Positions 34,002 to 52,181 of a stretch of DNA of 64,000 bases are shown here, piece after piece (position 1 is the first letter of the stretch; every line of letters begins with the position of its first letter). Source of the stretch: Rhodospirillales bacterium (lineage in GTDB: Bacteria; Pseudomonadota; Alphaproteobacteria; Acetobacterales; Acetobacteraceae); contig CANHKG010000003.1 in NCBI GenBank assembly GCA_947460455.1, positions 1-64,000 of the forward strand. Direction: 5' to 3'. A program made the position numbers and the translations under genes. Under the pieces are notes generated by a model. It was not told the DNA's origin and did not search any database. It saw only the letters and a program-made list of their open reading frames with translations.

Positions 34002-34837
34002 CAGGGTTTCTCCCCGGCCAGCTTGTGCCAGCGTTGGTAGGCGAGGAAGAGTTCTTGACCCTTCCGAATTGCCCAGCCGCGATTGAGATATCGGCGAGCC
34101 TCCGGCAACAGGGCGCGGTCGAGGGTCTTTTCGTAGAGGTCGAGCATCGCGGCGGCGCGGTGGCAGCACAGCATGGACATCTCGTGATCGCTCGCGCGCA
34201 GGTAGGGGCCGGCCCGGTCGATCACGTTGCTCACGTCCAGGGACCGCTCGGGCTGCTTTGCGTGGCGCAGAAGAACCGCCAGCAGCAGGCGGCCGAGGGC
34301 GTCATGCTCGGGATACTTCTGGTCCTCGATAAGCTGGAGCCACCGGGTGAAGAAGGAAACCGCGGGCTTGTGCTGGCCGGCCTTCATCACCGCCTCGTAG
34401 ACCATGGACCGCTCCCGGGCGGGCGGCAGGTGCCCTTCGGTCTCCGACCGATGCAGGATGTCGGCAACCAGCAGGCGGTCATCGTCACTGGCGAAAGGGT
34501 CCGGTTGGAACCCGTGCTCCCGTAGCCAAGCCCTCACGTTCTTCAACGCGACCACCTGCGTCGGCAGGCCCTGCTGGATCATGTCGCGCAGGTCCCGCTT
34601 CACCTGCGGCACCACCAGGCAGCCTTGTCGCAGCACCGCCCATGCCCGGGTTGCGGTGGCGCCGCGCGGCTCGTCCAGCCTCACTTCCAGGATATCCTTG
34701 CGAACCGCGACGATCGGTAGGGGGTCTTCGCGCACCCCGTCATCGAGGCCGCAGTCCACCAGGGCGTTCCACTGGCTCTGCTCGGCATGGAGCAGCCACT
34801 GAAAGACATCCTCCCCGTTGATGTCGATCTCTGCCAC
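34001..34837 (-). CDS. Unknown protein encoded inside the type I restriction operon
   Basis: A 278-residue soluble protein not matched to a family. The first 90 residues look mixed alpha-beta (DVFQWLLHAEQSQWNALVDCGLDDG). The rest is helical with TPR-like spacing (FFTRWLQLIEDQKYPEHDALGRLLLAVLLRH; EARRYLNRGWAIRKGQELFLAYQRW). Its stop overlaps the hsdR start, so it is translated together with the endonuclease subunit. A control or accessory role in restriction is an inference from position alone. Confidence 0.75.
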   Translation of the reverse strand: MAEIDINGEDVFQWLLHAEQSQWNALVDCGLDDGVREDPLPIVAVRKDILEVRLDEPRGATATRAWAVLRQGCLVVPQVKRDLRDMIQQGLPTQVVALKNVRAWLREHGFQPDPFASDDDRLLVADILHRSETEGHLPPARERSMVYEAVMKAGQHKPAVSFFTRWLQLIEDQKYPEHDALGRLLLAVLLRHAKQPERSLDVSNVIDRAGPYLRASDHEMSMLCCHRAAAMLDLYEKTLDRALLPEARRYLNRGWAIRKGQELFLAYQRWHKLAGEKP

Positions 34838-34960
34838 GGCGTGCGTTCCTCATCCGGGCTGGCGGAGGCGAGGGGGCAGACCATCTGGCACCCCGTGGCA
34901 ACCTCCGGCCGGGGTGGGCAGGTGTATCGAAGAGGGGCGCTCGGAGGCTGCCATGGCGGC

Positions 34961-35941
34961 TCACACGGGCGGGTCGTCGGCGGCGGGAGCGAAGGCCTTT
35001 ACGCGCGGGGCCAGGGCCTTGTGGAGGGCCTCCAGGCGCGTGGAGATCCACAGGTGCTGCTCGCCCCACTGCGCCTCGATGGCCGGATCGGTCCCCTCAC
35101 GGCGCCAGTAGATGCGCTGGAGGTCACGGTCCGAGAGGTCCTCCCAGATGAGGCCGGGGCCCACCTCTAGCTCGATCTCGGTCTTCTGGTTGTAGAGGAA
35201 GTCGAAGAGGCCCTTCGCGAGTGACCGCCGCATCTGGCACTCAGCCGTGAGCGCCTTCGTGTTCGTCCCCATGGTGGCCTGGAGCCATGCCCGCTGTATG
35301 CCGATGGCGAACACAGCCCAGCGCCGGTGGCTCGGCTTCTGGGACTTCACCGGGCTCTTGCGCTCGACCAGGAGCTGCCGAAGCCCCTCCCAGAAGCGCA
35401 CGCGCTGGGTGTCCTGCGGGGTCAGGGCGCCTTCGGTCTTCTTCGCTTCGTTGACGGCGCGGCTCCAGTCATTCGGGCGAGCCACCACGTTCAGCTTCGG
35501 TGCCAGGGGGGAGGGGCCGATGCGCCACAACTCGATCTCCATTCCGAAGAACTGCAGGCCCTCACCGGTCATGGTGTTGAGCCAGTCGATCGCCGCGCGG
35601 TGCTGGTCCACGAACTGGGTTGCCACCCAGATCACTGTGGCTGCCTTCACGCCGGCCGCGTAGGTGAGCATCTGGCCGAGATGGGCGTGGTCGGTCTTCT
35701 CCAACTGGTTCTCGATCACCACCCATTGCTCGTCGGGCGTGTCGGTGCGGCGGGCCAGGATGTCGGCCTTGAAGGGGCCAATGGCGTGCTCCTCGGCTTC
35801 CAGTTCCAGGCCGATCCCGAGCGTGTCGCCCAGCAGCTTCAGGCCCTCTGGGGAGGCCAGCCAGGGGGTGAAGTTCTCGGCCTCCTTGGGCCAGGCCATG
35901 CGAGGATCGACGCGCTCCAGGGAGCCTAGGGTGGTGCTCAT
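34961..35941 (-). CDS. DUF4268 protein with PD-(D/E)xK-like N-terminal domain
   Basis: 326 residues. The N-terminal part resembles RecB-like nucleases, with D60 (PFKADILARR) and E77-N-Q79 followed by LEKTDHAHLGQMLTYAAG, where ENQ replaces the usual ExK. The C-terminal part (from about 180, VRFWEGLRQLLVERKSP...) is the DUF4268 domain. Its ATG overlaps the hsdS stop by 4 bp. A second nuclease or DNA-end-binding activity in the operon is possible. 119 bp separate it from the next gene. Confidence 0.8.
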   Translation of the reverse strand: MSTTLGSLERVDPRMAWPKEAENFTPWLASPEGLKLLGDTLGIGLELEAEEHAIGPFKADILARRTDTPDEQWVVIENQLEKTDHAHLGQMLTYAAGVKAATVIWVATQFVDQHRAAIDWLNTMTGEGLQFFGMEIELWRIGPSPLAPKLNVVARPNDWSRAVNEAKKTEGALTPQDTQRVRFWEGLRQLLVERKSPVKSQKPSHRRWAVFAIGIQRAWLQATMGTNTKALTAECQMRRSLAKGLFDFLYNQKTEIELEVGPGLIWEDLSDRDLQRIYWRREGTDPAIEAQWGEQHLWISTRLEALHKALAPRVKAFAPAADDPPV

Positions 35942-37197
35942 GCGGCGGCCTCCAGGGCGGTCTCTGCGGCCGTGACGAACAACTCGCCGGAGATGAGACG
36001 GGGAAGAAGGAGGTCGCGGGAGGCGGCAAGGCGCTTGTTGGCGTCAGCATAGATGCCAGCGCCATTGAGCATCGGCCAGGCGACCTGTTCGAACTGCCCG
36101 AGCAAATCACGACCGGGGACGGCTACCGGGAACTGCTTGAGGCTCTCTACTCGAACTCGTTGGCGGCCCGTTGCACCTGACATGCTCTTGACGGCATGGG
36201 CGCGAAATGGCGCCGACCGGGCAAGACAATAGATGTATGCCGGCCCCACCGCCTTCTGGCGCATGACGATAAATTCGGTTGAGCCGAAGCCAATGCCACC
36301 AGCAGACAAAAGTCCTCGAACCAGCCCCGTCTTCCCGTTCTCCAGGCAGGGGGTGATGCGAGCGAGCAAAGTATCGCCGTTCTGGAACTTCGACCCCGAG
36401 TTGCCCTCGCGTTGCTCGGGGTCATCGATGATTGATGTCGACGTCGAAAGTGCGTTCATGCCGATGAACGGCTTCGCGCCTTCCCGTGGGACCCGGGTTG
36501 GAGGATCGAAAGCGATGGCCTCCGAGGCGTTCAGTAGCTGCCACCCCTCCGGTATCCGCCCCTGCTCCGTCTCGACTATCGGGTGACCCTCGTGGCCCGG
36601 GAAGCGGAAGTGGACGAACCATTCGTCGAACAGGCGCCGGGCCATCTCCTCCAAGATCGCGATGCGCCGCCGGTTCACCTCGATGAGGTCGTCGTAGGCC
36701 CCGAGGATGGAGGCGATGCGGCGCTGGATGGGAAGGGGGGGCAGCCTGACCGGGAAGTTGGGAAACCTGGCAATCGGAATACGATCTACGGTCGCCCCGG
36801 ATAACCGGTTTGCATCGATCGTGTCCCGCCACTCGCGACTGAAGAAACTGTAAAAGAGGAAACGCGTGTCGACCTTTCGTATGTCGGGTCGTATCAGAGC
36901 AGTGCGGCGTCCGAGACATCCTCGGAAACCCGGTGGGATAATCGCATATCTGTTCAGCGTGGCCTCGTATGTGAAGACGATATCGCCAGGGCTTGGCGTT
37001 ACTCGCCTGGTCCACTGGGCGAAATCGGCTTCCGCTATGTGCCTGACATCAGATAGGTCGAGATGCCCATCTTCAGAGATGTTTCCAATGCCGAGGAATA
37101 CTGGTCCTTCAATCGCTGGAGGAGGGGTAGCGTGCGGTCCGTCGTATATTCCCTCCACAATGTGACTTATCGGAACGACGCTCCATTCGCGGTTCAT
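35938..37197 (-). CDS. hsdS: Type I restriction-modification specificity subunit S
   Basis: A 419-residue DNA-recognition subunit with two target-recognition domains (about 1-160 and 215-370). The first ends in the conserved region FPVRLPPLPIQRRIASILGAYDDLIEVNRRRIAILEEMARRLFDEWFVHFRFPG; the second ends in QFPVAVPGRDLLGQFEQVAWPMLNG. Two different recognition domains imply a split, asymmetric target. Both junctions (with hsdM and the DUF4268 gene) are 4-bp overlaps. Confidence 0.92.
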   Translation of the reverse strand: MNREWSVVPISHIVEGIYDGPHATPPPAIEGPVFLGIGNISEDGHLDLSDVRHIAEADFAQWTRRVTPSPGDIVFTYEATLNRYAIIPPGFRGCLGRRTALIRPDIRKVDTRFLFYSFFSREWRDTIDANRLSGATVDRIPIARFPNFPVRLPPLPIQRRIASILGAYDDLIEVNRRRIAILEEMARRLFDEWFVHFRFPGHEGHPIVETEQGRIPEGWQLLNASEAIAFDPPTRVPREGAKPFIGMNALSTSTSIIDDPEQREGNSGSKFQNGDTLLARITPCLENGKTGLVRGLLSAGGIGFGSTEFIVMRQKAVGPAYIYCLARSAPFRAHAVKSMSGATGRQRVRVESLKQFPVAVPGRDLLGQFEQVAWPMLNGAGIYADANKRLAASRDLLLPRLISGELFVTAAETALEAAA

Positions 37198-38753
37198 GAC
37201 AGCAGCAGCTCCGCGACGTTCTGAGCGATCTGGGACTGGAGCCTTGTCGCCTCAGCGTTCAGCCCCTCCAGCTCCTCCTGCAGCGCCTCCAGCTTCACCC
37301 GGAATTCCTCGTCATCCACCGCTTGCCCAGGCGCCACGCCGACATACCGGCCGGGGTTCAGGCTCCAGTCCTGAGCAGCGATGTCGGCCCGGTTCGCCAC
37401 CCGGCAGAGCCCCGGCACGTCCCGGTAGGTGCCGTCGGGGAACGCCTCGGCCATGCGGGGAACGCTGCCGGCCTCCGTCTCCGCCGCCTCGCCGCGCCAC
37501 AGCCGCACGATGTTGCCCAGGAACTCGATCTGGTCGGGGTCGAACACGCGATGGGCGCGGGTGACTTGGCGGAACAGGTGGCGGGCATCCAGGAACAGCA
37601 CCTGGTCGGCACGGGGGCAATTTGTCTTGCCGCGGTCCAGGAACCACAGGGTCACCGGCAGGGTGACCGTGTAGAACATGTTCGGTCCCACGGCGACGAT
37701 GCAGTCCACCGCACCGGTCTCCACCAGCCGCTGCCGGATCGCCCGCTCGCTGCCTCCTGCCTCGCTGGCGCTGTTGGCCATGACGAAGCCGGCCCGCCCG
37801 GTCTCGTTGAGGGCCGCGTAGAACAAGTTGAGCCAGAGGGTGTTCGCGTTGTTCACCGTAGGCAGGCCCAGGGGATACCGCGGGTCCACCTGGCCTGTGG
37901 CCGTGACGAGGCGGGTACGGTCCACCTCGCTCTGGTTGAACGGTGGGTTGGCCATCACGAAGTCGAAGCGGCCCCGCAGGCTGTGGGGGTCCTCGTAGTA
38001 GGTGTTGGCCTCGCGGATGTCGCCGGACAGGCCATGCACGGCAAGGTTCAGCCGGCACAGCCGCAGCGTGTCGCTCATCTTCTCGATGCCGTAGACCGCC
38101 AGTTCCTTGTCGGGGGCCCTGTGGTGCCGGCGCACGAACTCTGCGGAATGAACGAACATGCCGCCGGAGCCGCAGGCGGGGTCCAGGATGGCGCCGTGGT
38201 AGGGCTCGATGATCTCCACGATCAGCTTAACGATGGAGCCGGGGGTGAAATACTCCCCACCCTTCTGCATGAAGGCCGAGGCGAACTCTCCCATGAAGTA
38301 TTCGAAGATCAGCCCGTAGGCGTCCCCCTCGACCTCTAGGGGAGCCAGCAGGCGCAGGAGGTCCGACAGCACGGAGTTCGGCAGGGCGGCGTAGCTGCGG
38401 GGCAGGACACCGGCCAGATCGGGGTTCGCATCGACGATGCCGTCCATGGCAGCGGTCAGTTCGGCTCCCAGGTTGGCGTTCCCCGGCAGGGCCAGCAGGC
38501 GGGAGAAGCGGGCCACTTCGGGCACGAACATGGCACCGCGGGCCTGGTAGGCGGCCGGGGTGGGCTTCAGGCGTCCGGTGAACTGCGGCTTCAGTTCGGC
38601 ATCCACCAGGAGGAACTTCGCCTCCATCTGCCGCAGGGCGATCAGGGCGAGCACGGGCTGGGCATACTGGTCCGGACGGAGCCCGGTGTTCGTCCACATC
38701 GTCTCGGCGGCCTTGAAGAGCCGGCGGGCGAGGTCCTGGAGGTCTAGCGCCAT
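37194..38753 (-). CDS. hsdM: Type I restriction-modification methylase subunit M
   Basis: A 519-residue adenine-N6 methyltransferase. A helical HsdM N-terminal domain precedes the SAM motif DPACGSGGMF at 191-200 and the catalytic NPPF at 269-272. FMQKGGEYFTPGSIVKLIVEII is typical. The start MALDLQDLAR is chosen; 59 upstream in-frame residues do not look coding. It is the first gene of the five-gene leftward operon, so its expression protects the host before hsdR is made. Confidence 0.93.
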   Translation of the reverse strand: MALDLQDLARRLFKAAETMWTNTGLRPDQYAQPVLALIALRQMEAKFLLVDAELKPQFTGRLKPTPAAYQARGAMFVPEVARFSRLLALPGNANLGAELTAAMDGIVDANPDLAGVLPRSYAALPNSVLSDLLRLLAPLEVEGDAYGLIFEYFMGEFASAFMQKGGEYFTPGSIVKLIVEIIEPYHGAILDPACGSGGMFVHSAEFVRRHHRAPDKELAVYGIEKMSDTLRLCRLNLAVHGLSGDIREANTYYEDPHSLRGRFDFVMANPPFNQSEVDRTRLVTATGQVDPRYPLGLPTVNNANTLWLNLFYAALNETGRAGFVMANSASEAGGSERAIRQRLVETGAVDCIVAVGPNMFYTVTLPVTLWFLDRGKTNCPRADQVLFLDARHLFRQVTRAHRVFDPDQIEFLGNIVRLWRGEAAETEAGSVPRMAEAFPDGTYRDVPGLCRVANRADIAAQDWSLNPGRYVGVAPGQAVDDEEFRVKLEALQEELEGLNAEATRLQSQIAQNVAELLLS

Positions 38754-39051
38754 GGGTATCCCGGTGGTTGGTCGTTGCGAGACTACCACGGGCGATGCGC
38801 TGGCCAAGCGGAACCCGTTGGCTGCGGTTTGGGCGGCTCCTCGTGATGCGGCGGGACTGTTTTGGATTGGTGTGCGTCGTGTCGGCTGTGAGGCTTCCTC
38901 AGGGGGGCGCGTCGTGGCGTGGACCGACAACAGCCTTCAGCTCTCTTTTTGAAGTGTCCCAGAATGACCCCCCACCCGGGTGCCAGGGGACCCTATCTGG
39001 CCGCCGGCTACGGCGTCACGGCTCTCCCGTTGGTCAGCGTCCTTCCCGGCA

Positions 39052-39615
39052 TCACTGTCGCGGGCCGGCACCGGGCATCAGGCGGTAGACGCTGCTGCGG
39101 GCGACGTCGAGGCGCCTTGCGACCTCCGCGGGGCCGACCCCTTGGGACAGGAGTTGCGCCACCGCCGCCGCATCGATGGTCGCCTTGCGCCCCTTGTACT
39201 TGCCGTCGGCCTTGGCCTTGGCGATCCCCTCGCGTTGCCGTTCAAGCATGATGGACCTCTCCCATGCCGCGACCCCGGCCAGGATGGTCAGCATCAGGGT
39301 TGCCGTGGGGTTGCGGGTGTCGAGACGCTCTCCGCCCATGCTGAGGATCACCAGTCCGACTTCGCGGGCCTTGAGGTCCTCCACGATGCTGAGGAGTTCC
39401 GCAGTGTTGCGGGCGAGGCGGTCCGGACGGGCCACCACGAGGACGTCGCCAGCACGGAGGAACGCCAAGGCTTCCTTGAGGACCTTACGGGCAGCAACGC
39501 TGGAGACCTGCTCCGAGAACACCCGCTCGCAGCTGGCAGCACGGAGGTCGCGCTCCTGGGCCTCCAGGCCGGCTATCTGGTCCGAGGTCGAGGTGCGGGC
39601 GTATCCGACGAGCAT
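39052..39615 (-). CDS. Serine recombinase (resolvase/invertase family)
   Basis: A 187-residue small serine recombinase. The catalytic serine S9 is in GYARTSTSDQ, and catalytic arginines lie in VVARPDRLARN (R63, R66, R69). A C-terminal Hin-type helix-turn-helix (AAVAQLLSQGVGPAEVARRLDVARSSVYRLM) follows. The length is that of Tn3-type resolvases. Candidate res subsites lie directly upstream. It may resolve dimers of the element rather than transpose; no transposase is present. Confidence 0.9.
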   Translation of the reverse strand: MLVGYARTSTSDQIAGLEAQERDLRAASCERVFSEQVSSVAARKVLKEALAFLRAGDVLVVARPDRLARNTAELLSIVEDLKAREVGLVILSMGGERLDTRNPTATLMLTILAGVAAWERSIMLERQREGIAKAKADGKYKGRKATIDAAAVAQLLSQGVGPAEVARRLDVARSSVYRLMPGAGPRQ

Positions 39616-39629
39616 GTGGGGTCTCCAGT

Positions 39630-39757
39630 TGTCCGAATAGGGTCTGGACTCTCTGCCACACTCCGTCCGATTGTACCAGCCCCATTCATACCGGACGCGC
39701 TTCGCTCTCTGGCGCAGTTCCAGCGGACGTCCTGCTGGGGCAAGGGCTAGTCGGACA
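39630..39757. promoter_or_regulatory. Candidate resolvase res site (three subsites)
   Basis: Three inverted (T/C)GTCC...GGAC(A/G) pairs lie directly upstream of the resolvase start: 39630-39650, 39664-39697 (34 bp, ends CGTCCG and CGGACG) and 39728-39757 (30 bp, ends CGTCC and CGGACA). Tn3-family res sites have three such dimer sites upstream of the resolvase gene, with a 34-bp site II. The half-site match is short, so this is a proposal. The stretch 39616-39933 holds nothing else. Confidence 0.4.
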
Positions 39758-39933
39758 TCCATGCAGGTTCATAGATCCCACGAGGTCCAGCGGAGCATCT
39801 CAGATGAACAGGACGCGCTACCTTGCGGTGGGCCTTCGGCGCTGTCGCTAGCCTATCTGCATCGTCGCAATGTATCATCAGATCCTGAAATACTGGGCAG
39901 CCTTTCGTCCCAGAGACATGACTGGAGACAATC

Positions 39934-40806
39934 ATGCGGCGCTCTGCAGATGTGTGGAAACTTCCTCTCCAGACCGAGCGGATCCGCAGGCTTGAGAGTG
40001 AGCTTTGGAGCGCTCGTCGAACGATAGTCGGAATGGCAGCGGAACCTCTTGCCGAGGCGCTCTTGAACTACAGGGATTGTCAGTCCGAGGATGATTTCTG
40101 GCGTTGGCGACAACAAGCGATCGAAACAGTAATTAGCGCTGCGACAGTAGATCCGGAAATCAGTTATCTGCAACCGCGCGCTTGGTGCCCGCTATGCCGC
40201 GGCGGCAGTTCCGGGCCATTTGACCGCGGCTTTTCGATACCGGAAGGCATGCGGCGACATCTCGACGGGCACGGAAATGTTGCTGCGTGCCCGGTCACTG
40301 CGGCAGCTTTTTGGCTTGCCAGGGAGGGGCTGCAAGACCGTTTCGAGGCAGATAAGCGCACCAAGGAGGCAATCCTGCTCGAGCGTCGCGAAACCGAGCG
40401 CCTCTATCTGACCCATCCGAACGAACCTCCGCGCCTGCTGGAGGAGCGGGTGGAGGGCTGGATTGGAGAACTCCGTGACGCCGCGGCAATGCACGCAGCG
40501 GAACAACGGTTGCTCGCACTGGGTTTCGGGATGGAGACGAGCGGGAATGTGGTGTCTTGGCGCCTTCAGACAGAAGGTTGGACCGTGCTGGCCGATCCGC
40601 GCAGCGTCGGACGCATCGCTTGCGTCCTCTACCGCACAGAGATTCTACCCGTTGCATCCATAGGTCGCAGCCGAAAACGTCACTCGCCTAGACCTGTGAC
40701 CTCATCATTCACCTTGCTGGACACTTGGAAACACGACATCCCCGGCAAGTTCAGACAGCGGATGGAAGATGCAGCTCGAGAGCTGTCCGCTCGTGATGAG
40801 TCGTAG
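39934..40806 (+). CDS. Unrecognised protein with possible zinc-binding CxxC/H module
   Basis: 290 residues, no family recognised. Residues about 1-70 are helical and charged. A possible zinc finger follows: CPLC near 85-88, then His residues in MRRHLDGHGN and a Cys in AACPV. The middle is a long helical region rich in Glu and Arg (REGLQDRFEADKRTKEAILLERRETERLYL). The end is basic. The codon use is less G+C-rich than the flanking chromosome. It is a lone rightward gene within element 1. Confidence 0.6.
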   Translation: MRRSADVWKLPLQTERIRRLESELWSARRTIVGMAAEPLAEALLNYRDCQSEDDFWRWRQQAIETVISAATVDPEISYLQPRAWCPLCRGGSSGPFDRGFSIPEGMRRHLDGHGNVAACPVTAAAFWLAREGLQDRFEADKRTKEAILLERRETERLYLTHPNEPPRLLEERVEGWIGELRDAAAMHAAEQRLLALGFGMETSGNVVSWRLQTEGWTVLADPRSVGRIACVLYRTEILPVASIGRSRKRHSPRPVTSSFTLLDTWKHDIPGKFRQRMEDAARELSARDES

Positions 40807-41389: not shown

Positions 41390-42757
41390 GTGATGAGCAT
41401 CTCCCCTCAGTCCGCTCCGGACCTCCACAAGGCCCCTCGCCCGGTCGGGTTGATCCGGGAGGCGGCCACCACGGAGGCTATCGCCCTGGCAGCCGTGGTG
41501 GCGGACCTCTGTGAGTCTCACTTGGACCGCGTGAGGATCCTGAAGGCGCAGGGACGTAGGACCTTGCGGGAGGACGTAGGGACAATCCTGGCCGATCTTC
41601 TCAGGGCGGACTTCAAGGGGCGGGCCAGTTCTGCCGCCATGGGCCACGCCACTCGAGCATGGGAGGCCACCATCGTTGGACGAGAGCGCTTCTCGGCTCG
41701 GGTGATGGCCATGCGGAAGGCCGGTCTGCTGCAGACGAAGATTGGCACCCGATGGGGTGACTCCTGGGAGGACGGGCCGACGACCTTCACCGGGTCTCCT
41801 ACCCTGCTATGGCCCACAGAGCGCCTCAGGGATCTTGCTGCAGAACATGGCGTCGGCGCGGCGGGCGCCGCGAGGGACTGGCGGATCAGCCCCACGGCCG
41901 AGAGGCAAGTCATCAAGCTGCGCCCCGTGGACCTTGTGCGGATCGGGGCGCTGGAGGAGCCGAACCGCACTGCCAGCAGAATTGGGCAACGAAAGCGGGT
42001 CTCGGCGGTCCTGCCCGAGAGCCAGGAGGAGACGCTAGAGGTCATGCGGGCTGCCGTCGCTGCGCTCAATGCCCACGTCGCCTCTGCCGACATTCGCGGC
42101 TGCCTTGCGCCGGCCTTCCGGCGGACGTTCAAGCACGCCTTGACCTTCGGCGGCAGGCTGAACGCGGTGGGGGCAGACCGCTATCAGATCGCGTCGAAGG
42201 AGGAGCGGGCGGCCATTACCATTAGCGGGGAGCCCGTAGCGGAGGTGGACATCCATGCATCCCAACTCTGCATCCTGCTTGCCCTGACGGGGACCAGGAG
42301 CCTGCCCCCTGGCGACCTGTACGCTTGCGGCGGGCTTCCCCGCGACCCCGTCAAGGACTGCGTGGTGCAGACCATCGGGGCCGGACGGTTCCTCAGGCGA
42401 TGGTCCGACAGGACCCCGGCGGCGAGCAAGGCGATCCCGCTCCGCGTGGTGCAAAACGCCCTCCGCGCCTCGTATCCAGCCCTAGGCGATCTTCCTGCCG
42501 CGGTGCCCCCCGCAATTCTCAGCGGCGTCCCGAAGGCGAGCATCGATTGGGCCGCCGGGCAGTACTTGGTATTCCTCGAGAGCGAGATCGTTGGGGACGC
42601 CCTGGCCTACCTGATGGCGCGCGGGGTCATCGGGCTGCCGGTCCATGACTCAATACTCGTGCCCCGGTCAGCCGTGGGGCTTGCCCAAGCAGGGCTGGGC
42701 GAGGCGTCAACCAGGCGTCTGGGCCTCCCCCTGCGGACGAAGGTCTCGGGGTCGTAG
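41390..42757 (+). CDS. Family A polymerase palm-like protein (function unknown)
   Basis: 455 residues. The C-terminal half carries motifs in the order of DNA polymerase I-type palms. Motif A-like is EVDIHASQLCILLALTG (D287, compare DYSQIELR). Motif B-like is RDPVKDCVVQTIGAG (K322). Motif C-like is GLPVHDSILVP (H419-D420, compare VHDE), preceded by a helix FLESEIVGDALAYLMARGV. Before motif A comes TFKHALTFGGRLNAVGADRYQ. No 3'-5' exonuclease motif is seen. Residues 1-200 are not recognised. It might replicate the element, prime synthesis, or be an inactive relative. Confidence 0.55.
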   Translation: MMSISPQSAPDLHKAPRPVGLIREAATTEAIALAAVVADLCESHLDRVRILKAQGRRTLREDVGTILADLLRADFKGRASSAAMGHATRAWEATIVGRERFSARVMAMRKAGLLQTKIGTRWGDSWEDGPTTFTGSPTLLWPTERLRDLAAEHGVGAAGAARDWRISPTAERQVIKLRPVDLVRIGALEEPNRTASRIGQRKRVSAVLPESQEETLEVMRAAVAALNAHVASADIRGCLAPAFRRTFKHALTFGGRLNAVGADRYQIASKEERAAITISGEPVAEVDIHASQLCILLALTGTRSLPPGDLYACGGLPRDPVKDCVVQTIGAGRFLRRWSDRTPAASKAIPLRVVQNALRASYPALGDLPAAVPPAILSGVPKASIDWAAGQYLVFLESEIVGDALAYLMARGVIGLPVHDSILVPRSAVGLAQAGLGEASTRRLGLPLRTKVSGS

Positions 42758-43192: not shown

Positions 43193-44566
43193 CTACTCGG
43201 GCAACCTCACAGCTTCAACGCACGCACGCAGCAGGGCTTCACTGGGACCGCCCGAATAGACGTCATCGGTGATGTTCCCAGCCTCGTGACCCACGACCGC
43301 CTGGACCGTGGCCAAGTCGATGCCGCTGTTCCTCGCGGTCGTCACGAACCATCGGCGGAGGCTGTGGAAATCCACTCGGCTCGACCGGCCACCTGCCCGA
43401 ACCTCATCTACCCCCAGGGACCGCCGGTAGGTTCCGAACCGCTTGGACGCCGGCATTGACCGCTCCCGACCAGGCTTGGGGTCCCCCCCGGCCTCGTCAA
43501 TTAGGTAGGCCGCTGGTGGTTTTCCCGAAACTCGCCGTGCGACAATCGCTTGGAGGTCGGCGTGCGTGGGGACACGCCGGACAGCGGCGTTCGACTTGCC
43601 AATCCGAACCGTGAACCAACCACCTCGGCAGTCCGCCACCCGTAGTCGGTAGACTTCCTCTAGTCGCAGTCCGCTCAGGGACGCCAGCCGGATGACGTCC
43701 GCCATCTCGCCCACCGCAGGCCCCCGTAGGAGGAGCAACAGTTCATCATCCGTCATTGGTCGCTTGGACCTCTCATCGCCGGGCTGACGGGCCTTCGACA
43801 GGGACTGCCCGACCCACGGGTTCGATTCCCGGTCGGTCCGCCTAACCAGCCATCGCCAATACGCCGACAGCGCAGACATCTTCCGGTTGGCAGTCTTCCG
43901 GTCGGCCCCGTGTTCAAGGAACCAGGACGCATATCGCCCGGCCACTGATTTAGTGACTGCTTCAAGGGTCACGGGGAGGCGCTCGGTCGCGAGCCAAGTC
44001 GCAAACCCCTCGAGGTCCGAGCGATACTGCTGGACCGTCCGAGGGCGCAGCGGGCCCTTGGTGCCGCCCTCGCCAACCCACCGGTCCACGTAGGTCAGAA
44101 GGGGCGTCGCTGTGCCCTGTGCGATCGGAATGGCGGCATTCCGCTCGTCATCGGTTAGGCCTTCCATGCCCTCCCAGAACGATAATTCAGCAACATGCTT
44201 GGCGACCACGACAGGATGTGACGACGGCTCCTCCCAGGGCCGCCCCTCCACCCGGTCGCCCTTGAACCGCGCGACCATCTCAGGGTCTCCTCGCTCCAAC
44301 GCCACGAAAACCTCCCGCCACGCGAGGCCCAGAGTGGTCATTGGGTCAGTCCCCGCCACGGTCTGCTGGGTCCGCAGCGCCAATCGGAGTGCTGCATCGA
44401 AGGCCGCCAGGACGGCGTGACGTCGGGCCTGTGCAACCCGAAGGTCACCCGTACGAAGGGACTGGACGAACCGACGTTTACCCAGGGCATCCCACAGTGG
44501 CCGAGGCACAGCTTTCACCGCGTAGTATGTTTGCCCGCGTCTCTCCAGCCACCTCGTATCTGCCAT
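43193..44566 (-). CDS. Tyrosine integrase of element 1
   Basis: A 457-residue tyrosine recombinase. A SAM-like core-binding domain spans about 150-250. The catalytic set is complete: R301 (SGLRLEEVYRL), K324 (IGKSNAAVRR), H401 and R404 (HSLRRWF), H427 (GHEAG) and the nucleophile Y437 (DDVYSGG). The N-terminal part (RWLERRGQTYYAVKAVPRPL) resembles DUF6538-type integrases. Its start codon coincides with the right arm-type repeat at 44566-44586, so integrase binding there would repress its own gene. Confidence 0.93.
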   Translation of the reverse strand: MADTRWLERRGQTYYAVKAVPRPLWDALGKRRFVQSLRTGDLRVAQARRHAVLAAFDAALRLALRTQQTVAGTDPMTTLGLAWREVFVALERGDPEMVARFKGDRVEGRPWEEPSSHPVVVAKHVAELSFWEGMEGLTDDERNAAIPIAQGTATPLLTYVDRWVGEGGTKGPLRPRTVQQYRSDLEGFATWLATERLPVTLEAVTKSVAGRYASWFLEHGADRKTANRKMSALSAYWRWLVRRTDRESNPWVGQSLSKARQPGDERSKRPMTDDELLLLLRGPAVGEMADVIRLASLSGLRLEEVYRLRVADCRGGWFTVRIGKSNAAVRRVPTHADLQAIVARRVSGKPPAAYLIDEAGGDPKPGRERSMPASKRFGTYRRSLGVDEVRAGGRSSRVDFHSLRRWFVTTARNSGIDLATVQAVVGHEAGNITDDVYSGGPSEALLRACVEAVRLPE

Positions 44567-44586: not shown

Positions 44587-44665
44587 TGGTTCACTCCCAT
44601 CACCAGGGGTCAATTCACAAGGTAAGTCAATGACTTCTGAAGGTTAGGCACAGATTGAAGAGGGT

Positions 44666-44681
44666 CCCATCCCCTCCGCCA
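44666..44681 (+). other. Shared attachment core between elements 1 and 2
   Basis: An exact 16-bp repeat of the tRNA-Ser 3' end. It is attR of element 1 and attL of element 2. Only the acceptor-strand end is present here, not a second tRNA gene. Confidence 0.85.
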
Positions 44682-44736
44682 TTTTATTCTCATAATGCCT
44701 TGGAATTGGCCGGAATTTTCTCTACCCAGTGCGGCA

Positions 44737-44756
44737 TTACCACAGCCATTACCACA
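44737..44756 (+). promoter_or_regulatory. Left arm-type site pair of element 2
   Basis: Two TTACCACA octamers with 12-bp period. The copy at 52182-52201 near the other end has the same orientation and matches 18 of 20 positions. It lies 55 bp inside the core. Confidence 0.55.
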
Positions 44757-44797
44757 CCACGGCCTCGCTAGGCGGCCTGGATTGCCGCTCGCCGGCC

Positions 44798-44950
44798 TCA
44801 AGGCAAAAGCTCGATCTTCTGCCTTTCCTCCCGTCCGTCGCCTTCGTGGCCATCGGCCAGGGTCACGGCCGCCGGCAGCACGCCGCACCGGCTGCATTTC
44901 AGCCGAATCACGGCATGGGCAACGTGCAGGTCAGGGTTGCTTGCCCGGAG
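44798..44950 (-). pseudogene. C-terminal remnant of a small phage-type protein
   Basis: The minus strand reads RLRASNPDLHVAHAVIRLKC followed by SRCGVLPAAVTLADGHEGDG and a stop. I take this to be the C terminus of a small cysteine-pair protein common in alphaproteobacterial prophage-like islands. The upstream part is missing: the frame runs into sequence that codes on the opposite strand. Confidence 0.4.
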
Positions 44951-44979
44951 GCGGTCAACGTCGATCCGAACCAGGACAC

Positions 44980-45327
44980 GGCAAGCGGCTCTATGCGCTT
45001 GGCGATCAGCGGCAGAAGGACATTGCCGCGGCACTTGGTGTCTCGCCGTCCACCGTGTCGGAATGGCTGGCGCGGACGATCAAGGAAGAGAAGGAACAGA
45101 AGCGCGCGAAGGCTTACGCGATGTGGCTGGCGTGCGCGACGCAGCAGGAGATCGCGGAGGCTGTGGATGTCCATGTAGATACCGCCTCCGAATGGTCGAA
45201 GGGTTTTTCGGAAAATACGGCTGCCGAATTTTCCGAAAACTGGCGCGATTTCGACCCACCCATCTACAACGTTTGGAAGCAGCAAACCAAAACCAACGCC
45301 GTTGGCCATTTCGGCAACTCCGAAGCG
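44980..45327 (+). pseudogene. Fragment of a DNA methyltransferase-associated protein
   Basis: The plus strand encodes about 115 recognisable residues: two helix-turn-helix-like repeats (QKDIAAALGVSPSTVSEWLA; TQQEIAEAVDVHVDTASEW) followed by FDPPIYNVWKQQTKTNAVGH and FGNSEA. I recall the last segment from phage ParB/adenine-methylase fusion proteins, just before the catalytic part. Here the frame then becomes unrelated, so the methylase domain is lost. Confidence 0.55.
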
Positions 45328-45495
45328 CGGGATCGCGGCGATTTGCTGGTAGCGGGAGGATTGGTCGCGGGTGATGCCGATCTCAGAAAGTGTGGGAGGC
45401 GCGATAAACGCTGTCGTGCTGGACGACGGCGTTTGGTTCCACCCTTCGCGCGCCGCACCCTTCGCCTTCTCCGCATCCCTAAGCGCCTCTCCCAT
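45328..45495 (-). pseudogene. N-terminal remnant of a GI(T/S)xxQSSRxQ-type protein
   Basis: The minus strand reads MGEALRDAEKAKGAAREGW followed by TLSEIGITRDQSSRYQQIAA and then loses similarity at the exact base where the plus-strand fragment ends. It starts 22 bp downstream of the HGGXSTG gene, as a normal operon member would. The rest of the gene appears to have been removed or inverted. Confidence 0.5.
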
Positions 45496-45517
45496 CCGCC
45501 GCTCAGCCCGGATGCGC

Positions 45518-45820
45518 CTACTCCCGCGCCCACCGCAGTAGCTCGCGAAGCGCCCGGCGCTCGGCCGCCAGCATCCGCCGCAGTTCTATCGCGGCGGCCG
45601 AATACCGGCCGTGGATCGTGCGGGCCTTCCTAAGCCTCTCCAGGCCTTCAGGCGTGCGGGGGCCTGTGCTGGCGCCGCCGTGCATTCGACACCGGCCGTT
45701 GGCCATCCCTGGCCCTTGGCAGGGGGTGCCCTTCCGGGTCCGCGCTCCGCACCGGGGACAGGACTGCGCCAGTGGAAGCGTCGTGCGCCAGTCGGGGAGC
45801 CGGCGCATCGGGTTCTCCAT
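45518..45820 (-). CDS. HGGXSTG domain protein
   Basis: A 100-residue protein with two cysteine pairs (C21/C24 in CPRCGARTRKGTPC, then C34 and C44) and the HGGASTG motif at 47-53, followed by GPRTPEGLERLRKARTIHG. This is the HGGXSTG family of small putative zinc proteins found in proteobacterial phage-like elements; function unknown. The start MENPMRRL has AGGGG 7 bp upstream; a second ATG at 45835 is possible. The 5' part overlaps the next gene in another frame. Confidence 0.78.
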   Translation of the reverse strand: MENPMRRLPDWRTTLPLAQSCPRCGARTRKGTPCQGPGMANGRCRMHGGASTGPRTPEGLERLRKARTIHGRYSAAAIELRRMLAAERRALRELLRWARE

Positions 45821-46346
45821 CGGTTTCCCCTTCATGGCCCCGGCCCCCCTGTCCACCGTTCGCGATCCCGACAACTGCCTGTGCGCCGGCTTCCACCGTC
45901 ACCCGCTCCACCCGCACCACCTGGCGCCGATGCTTCCCGCGCTTGCGGTCCATCGCGTCCACGATCTCGGTGAACATGCGGCTTGCGCTGATTGCCGACT
46001 TCCGCAGCCCTTGGGCGATCTCGTGCGGCTGGTTGTCTTGCTGCGCCTTCCGGGCGCACTCCATCGCCATCGCGTGCAGCGCCATTCCCTGCGCCGCCAT
46101 CAGCCCTTCGATGGCGTCCCGCGGCGCAAAGGCGGCCATGCCAATCGCGACAAACTCGCCTCGGTCTTGCTTGTCCCGGTCGCTGGCGTCGGCGCCAACG
46201 GGTCGTTGGCCCTCCAAGGCTTGGTTCAACACGACGTTGTTGAAGCGGTCGCGGTCTGTCCCGCCGATGCGGCGGCCGTGCGCCGTGTCCTTCCAGTCCA
46301 GGTCGATGGCCACCGGCTGCGGCGCCGGAGTGCTCGGGTTCGTCAT
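45648..46346 (-). CDS. Unknown protein of element 2
   Basis: 232 residues, no family recognised. The first 165 residues look genuinely coding (DLDWKDTAHGRRIGGTDRDRFNNVVLNQALEG; helical AIEGLMAAQGMALHAMAMECARKAQQ). The last 60 residues are low-complexity and lie over the start of the HGGXSTG gene in a different frame, so the original stop may have been lost by a frameshift around 45840. Genes of this kind often follow P4-type primases in such islands. Confidence 0.6.
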   Translation of the reverse strand: MTNPSTPAPQPVAIDLDWKDTAHGRRIGGTDRDRFNNVVLNQALEGQRPVGADASDRDKQDRGEFVAIGMAAFAPRDAIEGLMAAQGMALHAMAMECARKAQQDNQPHEIAQGLRKSAISASRMFTEIVDAMDRKRGKHRRQVVRVERVTVEAGAQAVVGIANGGQGGRGHEGETDGEPDAPAPRLAHDASTGAVLSPVRSADPEGHPLPRARDGQRPVSNARRRQHRPPHA

Positions 46347-46494
46347 TTCGTCGTCCTCCGGGGACATTGGGGGACAAGGTGCAGGGTTGTGCAGGGTTGT
46401 CCGGTTAACCCGTCATGTGTGCGCGCGCGCACACGCACGTAACGGTGGAAATGGAAAACCCTGCACCACCCTGCACCTTCATTGCGTTCCAGCA

Positions 46495-48780
46495 TCAGAA
46501 CGGCACTTCCAAGGGGTCTGCGGCTAGGAGTTGCAGCCCGAGGAACACCATGCCGGCCTTGGTTTTCACTTTCGCAGCATGGCGCACCAGCGCCTCCGAG
46601 AACCGCTTCTCCGTGCCTGCGTCCTCGCCCCGGCTCGCGGCCCACATCTTCCAATCGGAATACAGATGCCGGGCCTGCGCCTTGGCGTGGTCCATGCGCT
46701 CGCACCTCTCCGCGAGCCACGTCGCGATGCTGTCCTGATCGGCGAAGTAGTCGGCTGAGGCGGCCATCACCACCGGCGGCGGGTTCAGCCCTTCCTTCTG
46801 CCATGCAAGGCACCCACGGATGGCCCATGCCAGGATACCGGGCAACTCAGCCTTGAGCCGTTCTGCAAGGTCTGGATCGGGTTTCGCCGGAACGAAGGTC
46901 AGCGGCACCAGATGGAGGCGACGGCGCATCGCGGCATCGGGGTTGCGCAGCACCGGAGAGTGATTGCCCGCGATCCACCACTTGCCCACCGGCTGAAATT
47001 CAAAAGGGTCGCCGCGCATCACGCGGGCGGCGATCTTGTCGCCGGCCACCAACGCCTTGAGCCGGGCTTCAGCCCACGGGCGGCCCTCCTCCGTCTCGGT
47101 CACGAGCACCATGCGCGCGCCCCGCAGGCTGGCCAGATGCGTCGGGTGTTGCTCATTGCGGCCCACCGTCACCACATCCCCCATGGCGGTTGTGGCGTAG
47201 TCCCCGAGGGCTGAGGCGACGGTGCCCAGCAGGACCGACTTACCGTTGCCGCCCGGCCCGCGCAGGAACACGAAGGCATGTTCGCGCGTGGTGCCCGTCA
47301 GCGTGTAGCCGATGAACCGCTGGAGGTAGCGCACCAGGTCCTTGTCTCGGCGCGTGATCTCCAACAGGAACCGCAGCCATCGCGGGCAGCCGCCACCCGG
47401 CGCCACACCCGCAACCTTCGTGTGCAGGTCGTCGCGGTTGTGGCTGCGTATCTCGCCGGTCTTGAGGTTCACCACCCCCTCCGGCGTATTCAGGCTCCAC
47501 GGCTCGGCGTCGAAGTCCTCCACTCGTCGCGCGTGCCGTGGGTCGGATCGGGCCAGCCGCTCCACAGCGGCCACGGTCGCGGCACTCGCCAGCTTCACCG
47601 CCTTGTTGCCGTCCTCAGCCACAGCCGCCTCTCGACACACAGCGCGGGCGAGGTCGAACACGGCAAGCGTATCATCCGTCCGCCAGCGGCATCCGTCCCA
47701 CCGTAGCCACGAGCCGAGGGCCGGCACGTAGAGAAGTTGGCCTACATGGCGCTCAGAGAACGTCAAAGCGAGCCGGTCTTCTGAGATTGCCGGCAGCGCG
47801 TCGGTAGCGCCCACGGCCCCGGTGCAATCTTGCGCCGCCCTATTGGGGCTGCCTTCCTCCCGCGATTGCCCACGCTTCCATCCGTTCTCCCGCGCGATGG
47901 CGTAGAGCGTGCCCGCTCCGGCGCCGGGCGGATGGTCGCGGTAGTGCTGCCACCTCGCTTCGGTGGCGGCTTCGTCGTAGGCGGGATGGCGTGTGCTCCA
48001 CTCGTGCCACGCGCACCGGCCCATTTCGCTCCCATCGGTCGCGCCCCAGGTCGCAAGCCCGATCTTGTTCCACGCCTCCCAATCGGCGGCGCCGTTGTTC
48101 GGGATCGCGGCTAGCGCTGCCAGCACGTCGAAGGTCGGGCCGCGCTGGCCCAGTGGCGAACGCTCGCGATTACCAGAACCAGAGGCGGGCTTGTCGGCAC
48201 CGATGATGACGCCGGCCGCATCCAGGAACTCCGTGATCTGCTCCTCCGTCACGGCCGGCAGCGTATCCACGGGCCAGGATCGCGGCCCGTCTGGTATCCA
48301 CTGGAGCGCGGCGCCGGAGTGGTGGATGCCGTAGGCCACGAATTGCTGGCCATGTCCCAGCACCTCGACCTTGCCGAACGCCTTGCTCTTGATCCACCGC
48401 TTGCCCGGCTCGCCTTCGGCGGCCCGATACAGCAGCAGCACGCGCGGCGAGTTGTCGCGGTAGCGCATGGGCGCCTCGCCGAACTGCTCCAGCGTCAACG
48501 CTTTCACCCTGGCCGCGATGGTCGGGTTGTCCACGTCGATGTCGATGGCGCGCAGCCCGGTGCAGAGGATGCCGGTGTTGAGCGCGTGACGCTGCGCCGG
48601 GCCGAGGTCTGGCCCGTGCTGCCAGCCGTTGCAGATCGGTGCCTTGCCCGCGTCCTTGTGGTTGGCATTCCAGTTGATGATTTCGATGGGCCTATACCCG
48701 GCATCCACCAGTTCAGCGCGGATGGCTTCGACCTGCGCAATCGAAGGCAGGGCAACAGGGAGGCTGGCGCCCTCGCTCAT
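46495..48780 (-). CDS. P4-type phage/plasmid primase-helicase
   Basis: A 761-residue replication protein. An N-terminal primase-polymerase domain has the acidic pair D80/D82 (LRAIDIDVDNP) and VLGHGQQFVAYGIHHSG. A PriCT-2-like region lies at about 218-300. The D5_N region precedes a superfamily 3 helicase with Walker A GPGGNGKS at 508-515, then VLVTETEEGRPWAEARLKALVAGDKI and KWWIAGNHSPV. It would start and unwind replication of the excised element. Its ATG overlaps the previous stop by 4 bp. Confidence 0.93.
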   Translation of the reverse strand: MSEGASLPVALPSIAQVEAIRAELVDAGYRPIEIINWNANHKDAGKAPICNGWQHGPDLGPAQRHALNTGILCTGLRAIDIDVDNPTIAARVKALTLEQFGEAPMRYRDNSPRVLLLYRAAEGEPGKRWIKSKAFGKVEVLGHGQQFVAYGIHHSGAALQWIPDGPRSWPVDTLPAVTEEQITEFLDAAGVIIGADKPASGSGNRERSPLGQRGPTFDVLAALAAIPNNGAADWEAWNKIGLATWGATDGSEMGRCAWHEWSTRHPAYDEAATEARWQHYRDHPPGAGAGTLYAIARENGWKRGQSREEGSPNRAAQDCTGAVGATDALPAISEDRLALTFSERHVGQLLYVPALGSWLRWDGCRWRTDDTLAVFDLARAVCREAAVAEDGNKAVKLASAATVAAVERLARSDPRHARRVEDFDAEPWSLNTPEGVVNLKTGEIRSHNRDDLHTKVAGVAPGGGCPRWLRFLLEITRRDKDLVRYLQRFIGYTLTGTTREHAFVFLRGPGGNGKSVLLGTVASALGDYATTAMGDVVTVGRNEQHPTHLASLRGARMVLVTETEEGRPWAEARLKALVAGDKIAARVMRGDPFEFQPVGKWWIAGNHSPVLRNPDAAMRRRLHLVPLTFVPAKPDPDLAERLKAELPGILAWAIRGCLAWQKEGLNPPPVVMAASADYFADQDSIATWLAERCERMDHAKAQARHLYSDWKMWAASRGEDAGTEKRFSEALVRHAAKVKTKAGMVFLGLQLLAADPLEVPF

Positions 48781-49154
48781 GCCTTCCCCCCCTTCCCATA
48801 GCGCCGCCGCAGATACGCCTTCGGGTCCATCTTCTTGGTAATGGCCCAGGAACAGAGGTTCGCCTGCGGGTCGAGAATGTCGTGGAGCGCGTCGATCAGA
48901 TGGCCCATGTCGATAACGCGGGTCCAGGACTTGCCGCGCAACTGGAAAATCCAATCCAGAACCTCAGCCGAGGTCGAGCAACGCTCCAGGTCAATCCGAT
49001 AGAACGTCCGCTGGTCCTGCACATAAGCAAGCTCCAGCGTCTCAACGCTCAGATGCCAGCGCCCCCACTGGCGGCGTTCAACACTCTCTTGCTCGGCCTT
49101 TTCGGCCAGCGCCACAATCTGATCGAAGGTCAAGAAGCTGATCGGTTTTTTCAT
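48777..49154 (-). CDS. Unknown protein upstream of the primase gene
   Basis: 125 residues beginning MKKPISFLTFDQIVALAEKAEQESVERRQWGRWHLSVETLEL, mixed alpha-beta, ending with a basic segment (KKMDPKAYLRRRYGKGGKA). No family is recognised. It overlaps both neighbours by 4 bp (ATGA), so it is translated as part of the primase operon, probably as a replication accessory or regulator. Confidence 0.7.
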   Translation of the reverse strand: MKKPISFLTFDQIVALAEKAEQESVERRQWGRWHLSVETLELAYVQDQRTFYRIDLERCSTSAEVLDWIFQLRGKSWTRVIDMGHLIDALHDILDPQANLCSWAITKKMDPKAYLRRRYGKGGKA

Positions 49155-49306
49155 GCGCGGGCGGCCTCCTGCCCGCAGATGGAACGAGCCACCATTGCGG
49201 CGTCGATCTCAGCCACGATGGCGGCGGCGATATCGCCTCTGCGACGATGCTCGGCAGCCTCGGCGCGCAGGTCGCGGGGAGTCTGTGCAGGATGGGTTGT
49301 CTGCAT
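49151..49306 (-). CDS. Small protein of element 2 (51 residues)
   Basis: MQTTHPAQTPRDLRAEAAE followed by a helical stretch ending SICGQEAARA. GGACC is the only upstream purine-rich signal. It ends in a 4-bp overlap with the following gene, which supports translation. No similarity to a known family is seen. Confidence 0.5.
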   Translation of the reverse strand: MQTTHPAQTPRDLRAEAAEHRRRGDIAAAIVAEIDAAMVARSICGQEAARA

Positions 49307-49429
49307 GGTCGGTCCTTGCGGAGCCGGCCGGACTGGAAATCCAGGCTTGCAAACGGTATATGCCGGGGTGTCAGCCGCCCAACACAACCGCCGCCGCCGG
49401 TCTCTCCACCCGAGGGCCGGCGGTTTCGT

Positions 49430-49675
49430 TTAGGTGCGGGACGGTGCGATGCGCGCGGGCGGAAGCGAGCCCAGAAACTCGCGGAGGCTGGCCATATCCA
49501 CGAGCACGCTGCGGCCCAGCTTGCGCATGACGATCTGCCCAGCACCCGCAGCGCGGTAGATCGCGGACCGGGACAGGCCCGACAACTCGCAGGCGTCAGG
49601 GATCGTCGCGAAGGCCGGCCATAGGGCCAGCGTTGCAGGCGGCGGCGCGGGTGGTGCGGAAATGGAGAGGGACAT
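49430..49675 (-). CDS. AlpA/excisionase-like helix-turn-helix protein
   Basis: 81 residues with a MerR/AlpA-type HTH: TIPDACELSGLSRSAIYRAAGAGQIVMRKLGRSVLVDMASLREFLGSLP, ending in a short basic tail. Proteins of this kind act as excisionases or as activators of the integrase gene in P4-like satellites. The start at 49675 is chosen because family members begin shortly before the HTH. It lies 5' of the replication genes. Confidence 0.8.
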   Translation of the reverse strand: MSLSISAPPAPPPATLALWPAFATIPDACELSGLSRSAIYRAAGAGQIVMRKLGRSVLVDMASLREFLGSLPPARIAPSRT

Positions 49676-49752
49676 TGGGTGCTCCGGGTTGTGCCGGAGA
49701 ACCATCTAGGCCATGCAACAGGCGATTTGTGGAACAAGAAGTCCCGCAGACA

Positions 49753-50301
49753 TTACGTTCCGGTCAGGCTGACGCGGGCGAGTGCGCGGCGCACCCGTTG
49801 CTTTGCTGTCGCCAAGGTCTGTAGTTGCCGGCCAAGCGGGATCCTCCCGGAGAGCACAAGCTGGGCCATCTCGCCGATGATGGCTCCTTTGCTAACGTCG
49901 GGGTGCTGCGCTTGGACTGCCCTAATCGTCGCGGCCACTTGCTCCTCCTCCAGCGTCGGGCCGGGCTTCTTAGGTCTGCCCATCACAGGCTTGTCCTCAA
50001 TCCATTGCTGGGCAGTATCTGCAATGGCGATCAGGGTCGCTTGCGCCTCCCTCCACCCCGTTAGCCGTGCCAGCGCAACCGCCGCCTCTGCCAAGGCGTC
50101 CTTGGCGGCCCGCACCGAAGATCGCTTGCGCTCCATCTCCTGCCGTGCGCGCTCCGCGTTTGCCTCGGATGCTTGCGAAAACAGAGCCTCCGCCAACATC
50201 CAGCGCTTCTCGGCGGCCAGCAGCACGCCACGCGCCGCCCTGCCGTCAATGCGGACGGTCGCAGGCCTTCCCGGCGGGTTGCCCGTTGCCTTCCTTGGCA
50301 T
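49753..50301 (-). CDS. Unknown helical protein of element 2
   Basis: 182 residues. A basic N terminus (MPRKATGNPPGRPATVRIDGRAARG) is followed by long helices rich in Ala, Glu and Arg (EALFSQASEANAERARQEMERKRSSV), suggesting a coiled coil. The end is a helix-turn-helix-like stretch (HPDVSKGAIIGEMAQLVLSGRIPLGRQLQTLATAKQRVRRALAR). It could be a DNA-binding regulator. No family is recognised. Confidence 0.6.
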   Translation of the reverse strand: MPRKATGNPPGRPATVRIDGRAARGVLLAAEKRWMLAEALFSQASEANAERARQEMERKRSSVRAAKDALAEAAVALARLTGWREAQATLIAIADTAQQWIEDKPVMGRPKKPGPTLEEEQVAATIRAVQAQHPDVSKGAIIGEMAQLVLSGRIPLGRQLQTLATAKQRVRRALARVSLTGT

Positions 50302-50446
50302 GTCGCCTCCGCTGGCGATCCGCATGGAGGTCGGCGCGGCGGCCCGGTGCGGTGCCGGGCTTTTCGGCGGCCAAACCTAGCCGCGCCGAGTCGGAGAATA
50401 CGATACCGGTTCTATTCTTTCCCGCCGGCCGCCTTCCAATAGGCGT

Positions 50447-50716
50447 TCATGCTGCCACCTCACCGCGCGTGGCGCACGCCTCGGCCAGCAATTCCGTGGC
50501 CCCCACTGCATCGTTGTGAGCGCGGCGCAGCACCTCGGCCAGCGGATGCAGCGCGCCGGATTGAAGCGAAGCGGGGCTGGCGGCGATGGCGGCCAGCAGG
50601 CTCGCCGTATCGAAAACGTCGATCAACGCGCGATCCAGAGTCGCGCGGGCCTCGGCGGTTGTGATGGCGTCACCGATCTCCAGCGTTGTGCTAGATGGCC
50701 TCTTAGCCTCAGTCAT
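50447..50716 (-). CDS. Small unknown protein of element 2 (89 residues)
   Basis: Begins MTEAKRPSSTTLEIGDAITTAEARATLDRALID with helical continuation (ASPASLQSGALHPLAEVLRRAHNDAVGATELLAEACATRGE). It is preceded by GGAAGGAAA 5 bp upstream, a good ribosome-binding site. There is no recognisable family. It is the first gene after the integrase in the leftward series. Confidence 0.6.
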   Translation of the reverse strand: MTEAKRPSSTTLEIGDAITTAEARATLDRALIDVFDTASLLAAIAASPASLQSGALHPLAEVLRRAHNDAVGATELLAEACATRGEVAA

Positions 50717-50804
50717 GGACTTTCCTTCCATGTTGCGGTCAGGCCGGCGGGGTGCTTCCACCACCTCGCCGGCCGCCTCTATGCCCGGTGCCGCCGGGCG
50801 CGGA

Positions 50805-52157: not shown

Positions 52158-52181
52158 TTGCCTGTCCGCCGAACCGTCCTC

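Follow-up and report, generated by a model that had tools for sequence, protein, structure and literature searches.

A divPolA2-type minimal polymerase encoded in a bacterial element inserted at a tRNA gene

Polymerase palms of the family A type normally serve cellular repair, phage replication, and organelle transcription. Previous work by Yutin et al. in 2024 described one protein with such a palm, divPolA2, in barbaviruses and other phages (PMC11348598). It has active-site residues in its palm, no exonuclease, and an N-terminal domain that replaces the thumb. It was reported from tailed phages only, in which one to three copies with variable neighborhoods accompany the regular polymerase, and both a repair DNA polymerase and an RNA polymerase were considered (PMC11348598). 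A second described system is the PICMI satellite, which has a core of integrase, AlpA, and primase, and in which the excised form replicates less once the primase is deleted (PMC10803314). We analyzed a stretch of 64,000 nucleotides from a Rhodospirillales bacterium (the window), in which one gene had been read as a minimal or degenerate family A polymerase. The family of this gene is already known from phages, and its bacterial setting with integrases and tRNA repeats appears to be new: the literature covered, which included few subscription papers, gave no account of bacterial divPolA2 elements.

A bacterial member of divPolA2

The open reading frame at 41390-42757 (forward strand, as are all its features below) has a GTG start, encodes 455 amino acids, and was confirmed as real. 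The ORF itself, a match to phrog_4756 (E 2.6e-13; function not known in PHROGs), and models with fold searches identify it as a divPolA2-type minimal polymerase gene. Three polymerase motifs lie exactly where the original prediction had placed them: motif A, VDIHASQL, at residues 286-293 (42245..42268), motif B, RDPVKDCVVQTIGAG, at residues 318-332 (42341..42385), and motif C, PVHDS, at residues 417-421 (42638..42652). The long helix noted ahead of motif C is likewise present in the window model, where DSSP assigns it to residues 382-410 (42533..42619); its positions L393 and D/E397 are kept in 80 of 80 sequences. A fourth motif, TFGGR at residues 252-256 (42143..42157), had been missed, and corresponds to the T/DxxGR motif of PolA and single-subunit RNA polymerases. 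The order of motifs is that of DNA polymerase I, as proposed, but the spacing is tighter: 31 residues from the arginine of TxxGR to motif A, 31 from A to B, and 102 from B to C, compared with 37, 49, and 129 in bacterial PolA and 112, 90, and 185 in T7 RNA polymerase. Pfam and NCBIfam searches detected no exonuclease domain in the window protein, in agreement with the first reading of the sequence.

Searches of Pfam, NCBIfam, and PDB sequences with the window protein returned no matches, single-sequence scans of sequence collections returned no relatives, and a PDB profile search with the whole family returned no matches. A family scan of GTDB contigs found 223 relatives, of which the best 80, mainly from Rhodobacterales and SAR116, were kept, and two scans of viral contigs contributed 16 and 6 more. 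All 80 family members match phrog_4756. Of 100 related genomes, 6 carry the gene, as do 32 of the 385 sampled genomes of Alphaproteobacteria (~8%). Vibrio and Aeromonas phages also encode homologues (E 7e-6 for that of Vibrio phage HNL01), and Sphingomonas and Neorhizobium plasmids carry others.

A tblastn search with one bacterial relative, L278, matched 284 phage records; 115 of these are from Rheinheimera phages, and Barba phages and MG592441.1 are also among them. The match in MG592441.1 (E 4e-7) falls within the gene of AUR84708, a representative used by Yutin et al. Since AUR84708 was recovered, the window protein is, by sequence comparison, a bacterial divPolA2. This identity rules out an undescribed protein family, and the earlier view of a new type with no characterised relative has to be given up: the family was reported in phages in 2024, though without biochemistry. 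What the bacterial and phage proteins share is the active-site palm, the lack of an exonuclease, an N-terminal domain of their own, and phrog_4756; the difference is that here the gene sits in chromosomal elements with an integrase and tRNA repeats. In a tree, the window protein groups with bacterial and plasmid copies in a branch of six rows with support 99 (the window, L002, L003, L030, L034, and a Sphingomonas plasmid). That branch holds no sampled phage copy, a separation that concerns the sampled phage copies in a tree whose deep branches are poorly supported. We also observed that Vibrio phage ICP1 encodes a homologue (L335:2191-3675; HQ641353.1 53296-54780) annotated as hypothetical (ADX89283.1).

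In one 80-sequence alignment of the family, G255, R256, R273, E285, and L393 are invariant (80/80), and D287, R318, K322, H419, D420, and S421 are each retained in 79/80. The two aspartates singled out in the original prediction, D287 and D420, are thus conserved among homologues; the exceptions are one protein each, and one of these has an ambiguous base close by. Conservation and fold together rule out a chance occurrence of motifs in this ORF. An inactive, degenerate palm is ruled out for the family because the active-site residues are kept, so that this part of the original description does not hold.

AlphaFold2 models were built with the 80-sequence alignment for the window protein (pLDDT 77.3, pTM 0.73) and for L278 (pLDDT 89.9, pTM 0.88). 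The best Foldseek matches in the PDB were family A DNA polymerases for both (E 7.7e-6 for the window protein, 1.1e-5 for L278). With VIA-align, residues ~165-455 of the window model superpose on Taq Pol I with 251 positions aligned at 4.5 A (Z 15.1), and also on human mitochondrial RNA polymerase (Z 14.5) and T7 DNA polymerase (Z 14.1); the L278 model superposes on yeast mitochondrial RNA polymerase (14.8), apicoplast DNA polymerase (13.9), and T7 RNA polymerase (13.6). TM-scores are modest (~0.3) because the match covers the palm/fingers half only. In its predicted structure, the window protein therefore has the palm/fingers fold of the PolA/single-subunit RNA polymerase superfamily; the palm reading survives with Z of 13-15 against both classes, and a fold unrelated to the palm was not what the search returned. 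The polymerase match starts at ~165 and is preceded by a part of the protein's own, with no thumb. On models and sequences together, divPolA2 is a right-hand polymerase that has neither thumb nor exonuclease and has kept its catalytic residues.

The N-terminal part, residues ~55-152 (41552..41845), is possibly a winged-helix DNA-binding domain. The models show a helix/helix/helix/hairpin order there, and the best PDB matches of an N-terminal profile are PadR/MarR winged helices in a consistent register, at weak scores (E 0.14-0.9) that are suggestive only. A Pfam search of this part gave nothing useful.

Between DNA and RNA polymerases

Which of the two polymerase classes does divPolA2 belong to? 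Fold matches within one Z unit were counted as ties, and because the top Z scores are tied, the fold does not decide between them. Sequence profiles lean somewhat to one side. The family profile scored 47 (E 1e-4) in hhalign against 14 phage RNA polymerases and 38 (E 1.7e-3) against 31 PolA/T7-type DNA polymerases; reversed or column-shuffled targets scored 12-20, and RNA polymerases against PolA scored 20. In the proposed comparison with PolA and T7-type families, both scores lie above all controls (<=20), and the resemblance is not specific to PolA. The superfamily of the palm stands, and to call the protein a "family A DNA polymerase" would be too restrictive, because the sequence profile is somewhat closer to RNA polymerases.

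Features of both classes are found. With family A (PolA and T7 DNA polymerase), divPolA2 shares the palm/fingers fold, TxxGR, motifs A, B (R..K), and C, and an LQNIP-like Q ahead of motif A; it differs in having neither exonuclease domains nor a thumb, in its shorter spacings, in a motif C of HDS rather than HDE, and in a motif B that does not end in YG as in PolA and has N-A there instead. With T7-type RNA polymerases it shares the fold, the DxxGR-like motif, HDS (in 79 of 80 members), and a DPY that aligns with DIY of those enzymes and not with DIH of PolA; it differs in having neither the large insertions nor the RNA polymerase N-terminal domain, and in being half the size. In an alignment with T7 RNA polymerase, TFGGR pairs with DWRGR, D287 with D537, R318/K322 with R627/K631, and HD420S with HD812S.

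The substrate, dNTP or NTP, would be expected to show at the sugar-selecting positions, which are E710 and Y766 in PolA (E. coli Pol I numbering) and G542 and Y639 in T7 RNA polymerase. Where PolA has E and T7 RNA polymerase G, the family has H (77/80), and where both have Y, it has N (78/80); the window member departs from its family with Q in motif A and G in motif B. These residues fit neither class, and therefore substrate choice is not readable from sequence.

We consider it rather unlikely that divPolA2 acts as a small DNA-templated RNA polymerase, or as a primase-like RNA synthesizer, either in the transcription of element or phage genes or in primer synthesis; this option was also raised by Yutin et al. 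(PMC11348598). Beyond the higher profile score, HDS, and DPY/DIY, this reading draws on database matches: PF00940 (RNA_pol), matched weakly by 5 of the 80 proteins (lowest E 0.011), is the sole polymerase family among the 25 Pfam families listed for them. DNA_pol_A (PF00476) is absent from those 25 and was not matched by the window protein. Weak PHROG matches of single members divide between RNA polymerases (7/80) and DNA polymerases (5/80), and a PF00940 profile search in Alphaproteobacteria gave no matches, as did its controls. Against a transcribing enzyme, the long T7-type insertions around the palm, which are promoter-recognition elements, are missing (31 vs 112 and 102 vs 185 residues), the sugar-selecting positions match neither class, and the window model has Taq as one of its top structural matches.

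Elements at tRNA genes

The polymerase gene had been placed on a 14-kb element, and its boundaries confirm this. The insertion target is a tRNA-Ser(GCT) gene (30364..30455, +; ARAGORN), and the 17 nt at its 3' end (30439..30455), TCCCATCCCCTCCGCCA, recur at 44665..44681. This direct repeat bounds element I, 30456-44681, of 14.2 kb. A tyrosine integrase (43193..44566, -; DUF6538 and Phage_integrase in Pfam) starts 99 nt from the distal repeat. At the other end is a type I restriction-modification block (30804..38930) with hsdR (30804-34169, -) and hsdM (37194-38930, -), both recognized from sequence motifs, hsdS (35938-37197, -; Methylase_S, E 3.4e-10), and two further ORFs (34001-34837 and 34961-35941, both -). 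Between this block and the polymerase gene lie a serine resolvase (39052..39762, -; Resolvase, E 7.9e-37) and an ORF of 290 amino acids with a CxxC...HxxxH stretch (39934..40806, +), which has no homologue near other divPolA2 genes. Serine resolvases also occur near divPolA2 in unrelated loci (L010, L244, L258, L011).

Element I is followed in tandem by element II (44682..52339, 7.7 kb), whose far boundary is a further copy of the tRNA end, 18 nt long (52322-52339), that overlaps the sequence of the 17-nt repeat. Profile matches identify in it a D5/prim-pol protein (46495-48954, -) and an integrase that differs from that of element I (50805-52157, -). Given tRNA-end repeats at 30439, 44665, and 52322, the window most likely holds two tandem elements at one tRNA-Ser. 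All nine genomes of the genus match a query made of the left flank and the tRNA, and the chromosomal flank was found in eight, including the window genome. Where the tRNA-Ser site was read, it is occupied in one sister by a relative of element II and in another by a third integrase, and no divPolA2 match was found in the eight sister genomes searched. Compared across the genus, the site reads as a hot spot and element I as an addition to it. The relative of the element II integrase region that a sister carries at that tRNA, without divPolA2, has 79% DNA identity.

The association with integrases and tRNA genes extends to other genomes. Among 29 loci from genomes drawn regardless of integrases (the alphaproteobacterial set), at least 12 have a tyrosine integrase no more than 10 kb from divPolA2, compared with an expectation of 4.6% (binomial 2e-9). 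The count is conservative because the weakest integrase matches fall outside those listed; for more than half of these loci, no integrase is listed at such a distance, in part through contig ends and decay. A tRNA gene is contained in 46 of 78 divPolA2 loci, and in 17 of the 46, including the window, a tRNA-end repeat of at least 17 nt and up to 67 nt spans the divPolA2 gene; random 70-nt segments gave such repeats in 11 of 2369 cases (0.46%). We list 15 repeat-bounded elements of 6.0-15.0 kb, all with an integrase; L280, which has a repeat and no integrase, was excluded from that list. Culturable environmental bacteria that carry divPolA2 include Paracoccus kondratievae, with an element of 6.4 kb (L250), and Sulfitobacter sediminilitoris (L259). 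Many contigs end within elements, and loci were collected through divPolA2, so that elements without it are uncounted.

Element cargo varies, and includes a Pycsar-type cyclase, AIPR, HNH/PtuB-like, TerB, viperin-like, AbiU-like, and LmuA-like proteins, and metabolic genes. One 6.0-kb repeat-bounded element has a Pycsar cyclase match (L296:4818-6098, E 4e-32) beside divPolA2 and the integrase. Flanking genes were called by a simple longest-ORF rule and the top 25 neighbor families were tallied; among these, no second replication gene recurs in divPolA2 elements, and no neighbor other than integrases is general across the loci. Of 26 divPolA2 genomes, 5 have D5 primases, and only in the window does one adjoin divPolA2, within element II; none is near divPolA2 in the other 25. 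A prophage origin of the bacterial loci was rejected, as the repeat-bounded elements span just 6-15 kb and the families listed include no structural phage genes.

In eight loci (L017, L265, L271, L309, L310, L319, L320, and L343) divPolA2 is split into at least two ORFs, L320 being the copy of Paracoccus denitrificans DSM 413; such split integrated genes suggest decay after insertion. A contig from a viral collection (L045, 1-13249) carries divPolA2, a ParA-like protein, a serine resolvase, and an apparent RepA initiator. It is circular, of ~13.15 kb, because of a 99-nt terminal repeat, and is more likely a small plasmid than a virus.

Possible roles of divPolA2

Why would a small integrative element encode such a polymerase? 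The likeliest answer, to which we give about even odds, a probability near 0.5, is that divPolA2 is a replication protein that copies the excised element. The integrase would excise element I as a circle, the N-terminal domain would perhaps hold divPolA2 on element DNA, and divPolA2 would copy the excised circle or prime the host replisome. It would take the slot of the primase in PICMI satellites and of the D5/prim-pol protein in the tandem element II, and the restriction-modification genes would be cargo. PICMI and related satellites are likewise small (PICMI, 6 kb) and combine an integrase, one gene for nucleic acid synthesis, and variable cargo that is partly for defense. They differ in having AlpA and a DUF3987/DUF5906 primase and in inserting at fis, where the elements described here have divPolA2 and target tRNA genes. 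Features of satellites found in divPolA2 elements are thus the integrase and site-specific insertion, and no D5/DUF5906-type primase was found inside such an element. From the PICMI-like arrangement, and from tandem elements that carry one or the other gene, the simplest reading is that divPolA2 serves element copying.

Several observations count against a copying role. Phage divPolA2 occurs besides the phage's own replicative polymerase, and with that and the variable neighborhoods it is not the main replicase in phages. Iterons would be expected of an initiator; iteron-like repeats adjoining divPolA2 were absent from the window and were found elsewhere in 2/63 upstream and 7/63 downstream regions, a scarcity that counts against this role. 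The circular contig L045 pairs divPolA2 with an apparent RepA initiator.

By analogy with defense reverse transcriptases, divPolA2 might instead be defense or counter-defense cargo that makes a toxic or protective nucleic acid upon infection. Its neighbors in the elements include defense-like genes (restriction-modification in the window; elsewhere the Pycsar-type cyclase and the viperin-like, AIPR, AbiU-, PtuB-, and LmuA-like proteins), and phages carry one to three copies in variable contexts (PMC11348598). We regard this as improbable: divPolA2 stays with the integrase across elements of differing cargo, which is core-like behavior in a sample that was itself chosen by divPolA2, and no partner gene recurs with it. 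To our knowledge most integrases work without such a polymerase, and the host has its own PolA, so that an accessory repair or gap-filling polymerase acting on recombination or integration intermediates is more improbable still, even if divPolA2 is close to the integrase and the missing exonuclease and thumb would suit short patches. Yutin et al. suggested a repair function for divPolA2 in phages (PMC11348598).

The copying role can be extended to a broader, quite tentative proposal. divPolA2 may mark a widespread, undescribed class of tRNA-targeting elements of ~6-15 kb, which would combine an integrase with an initiator-polymerase, made of a winged helix and a minimal palm, that recognizes the origin and copies the element, often with defense cargo; the enzyme is also encoded by related lytic phages. 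We know of no bacterial integrative element in which one such polymerase both recognizes the origin and copies.

If divPolA2 does copy its element, a thumb-less, exonuclease-less palm would be the only recognized replication-type gene there, and little would be needed to copy a mobile element. The gene would also serve as a searchable marker for small defense-carrying elements, and it would help to decide the purpose of the phage copies, including that of Vibrio phage ICP1. With a protein of 455 residues, the choice between DNA and RNA polymerase is directly approachable.
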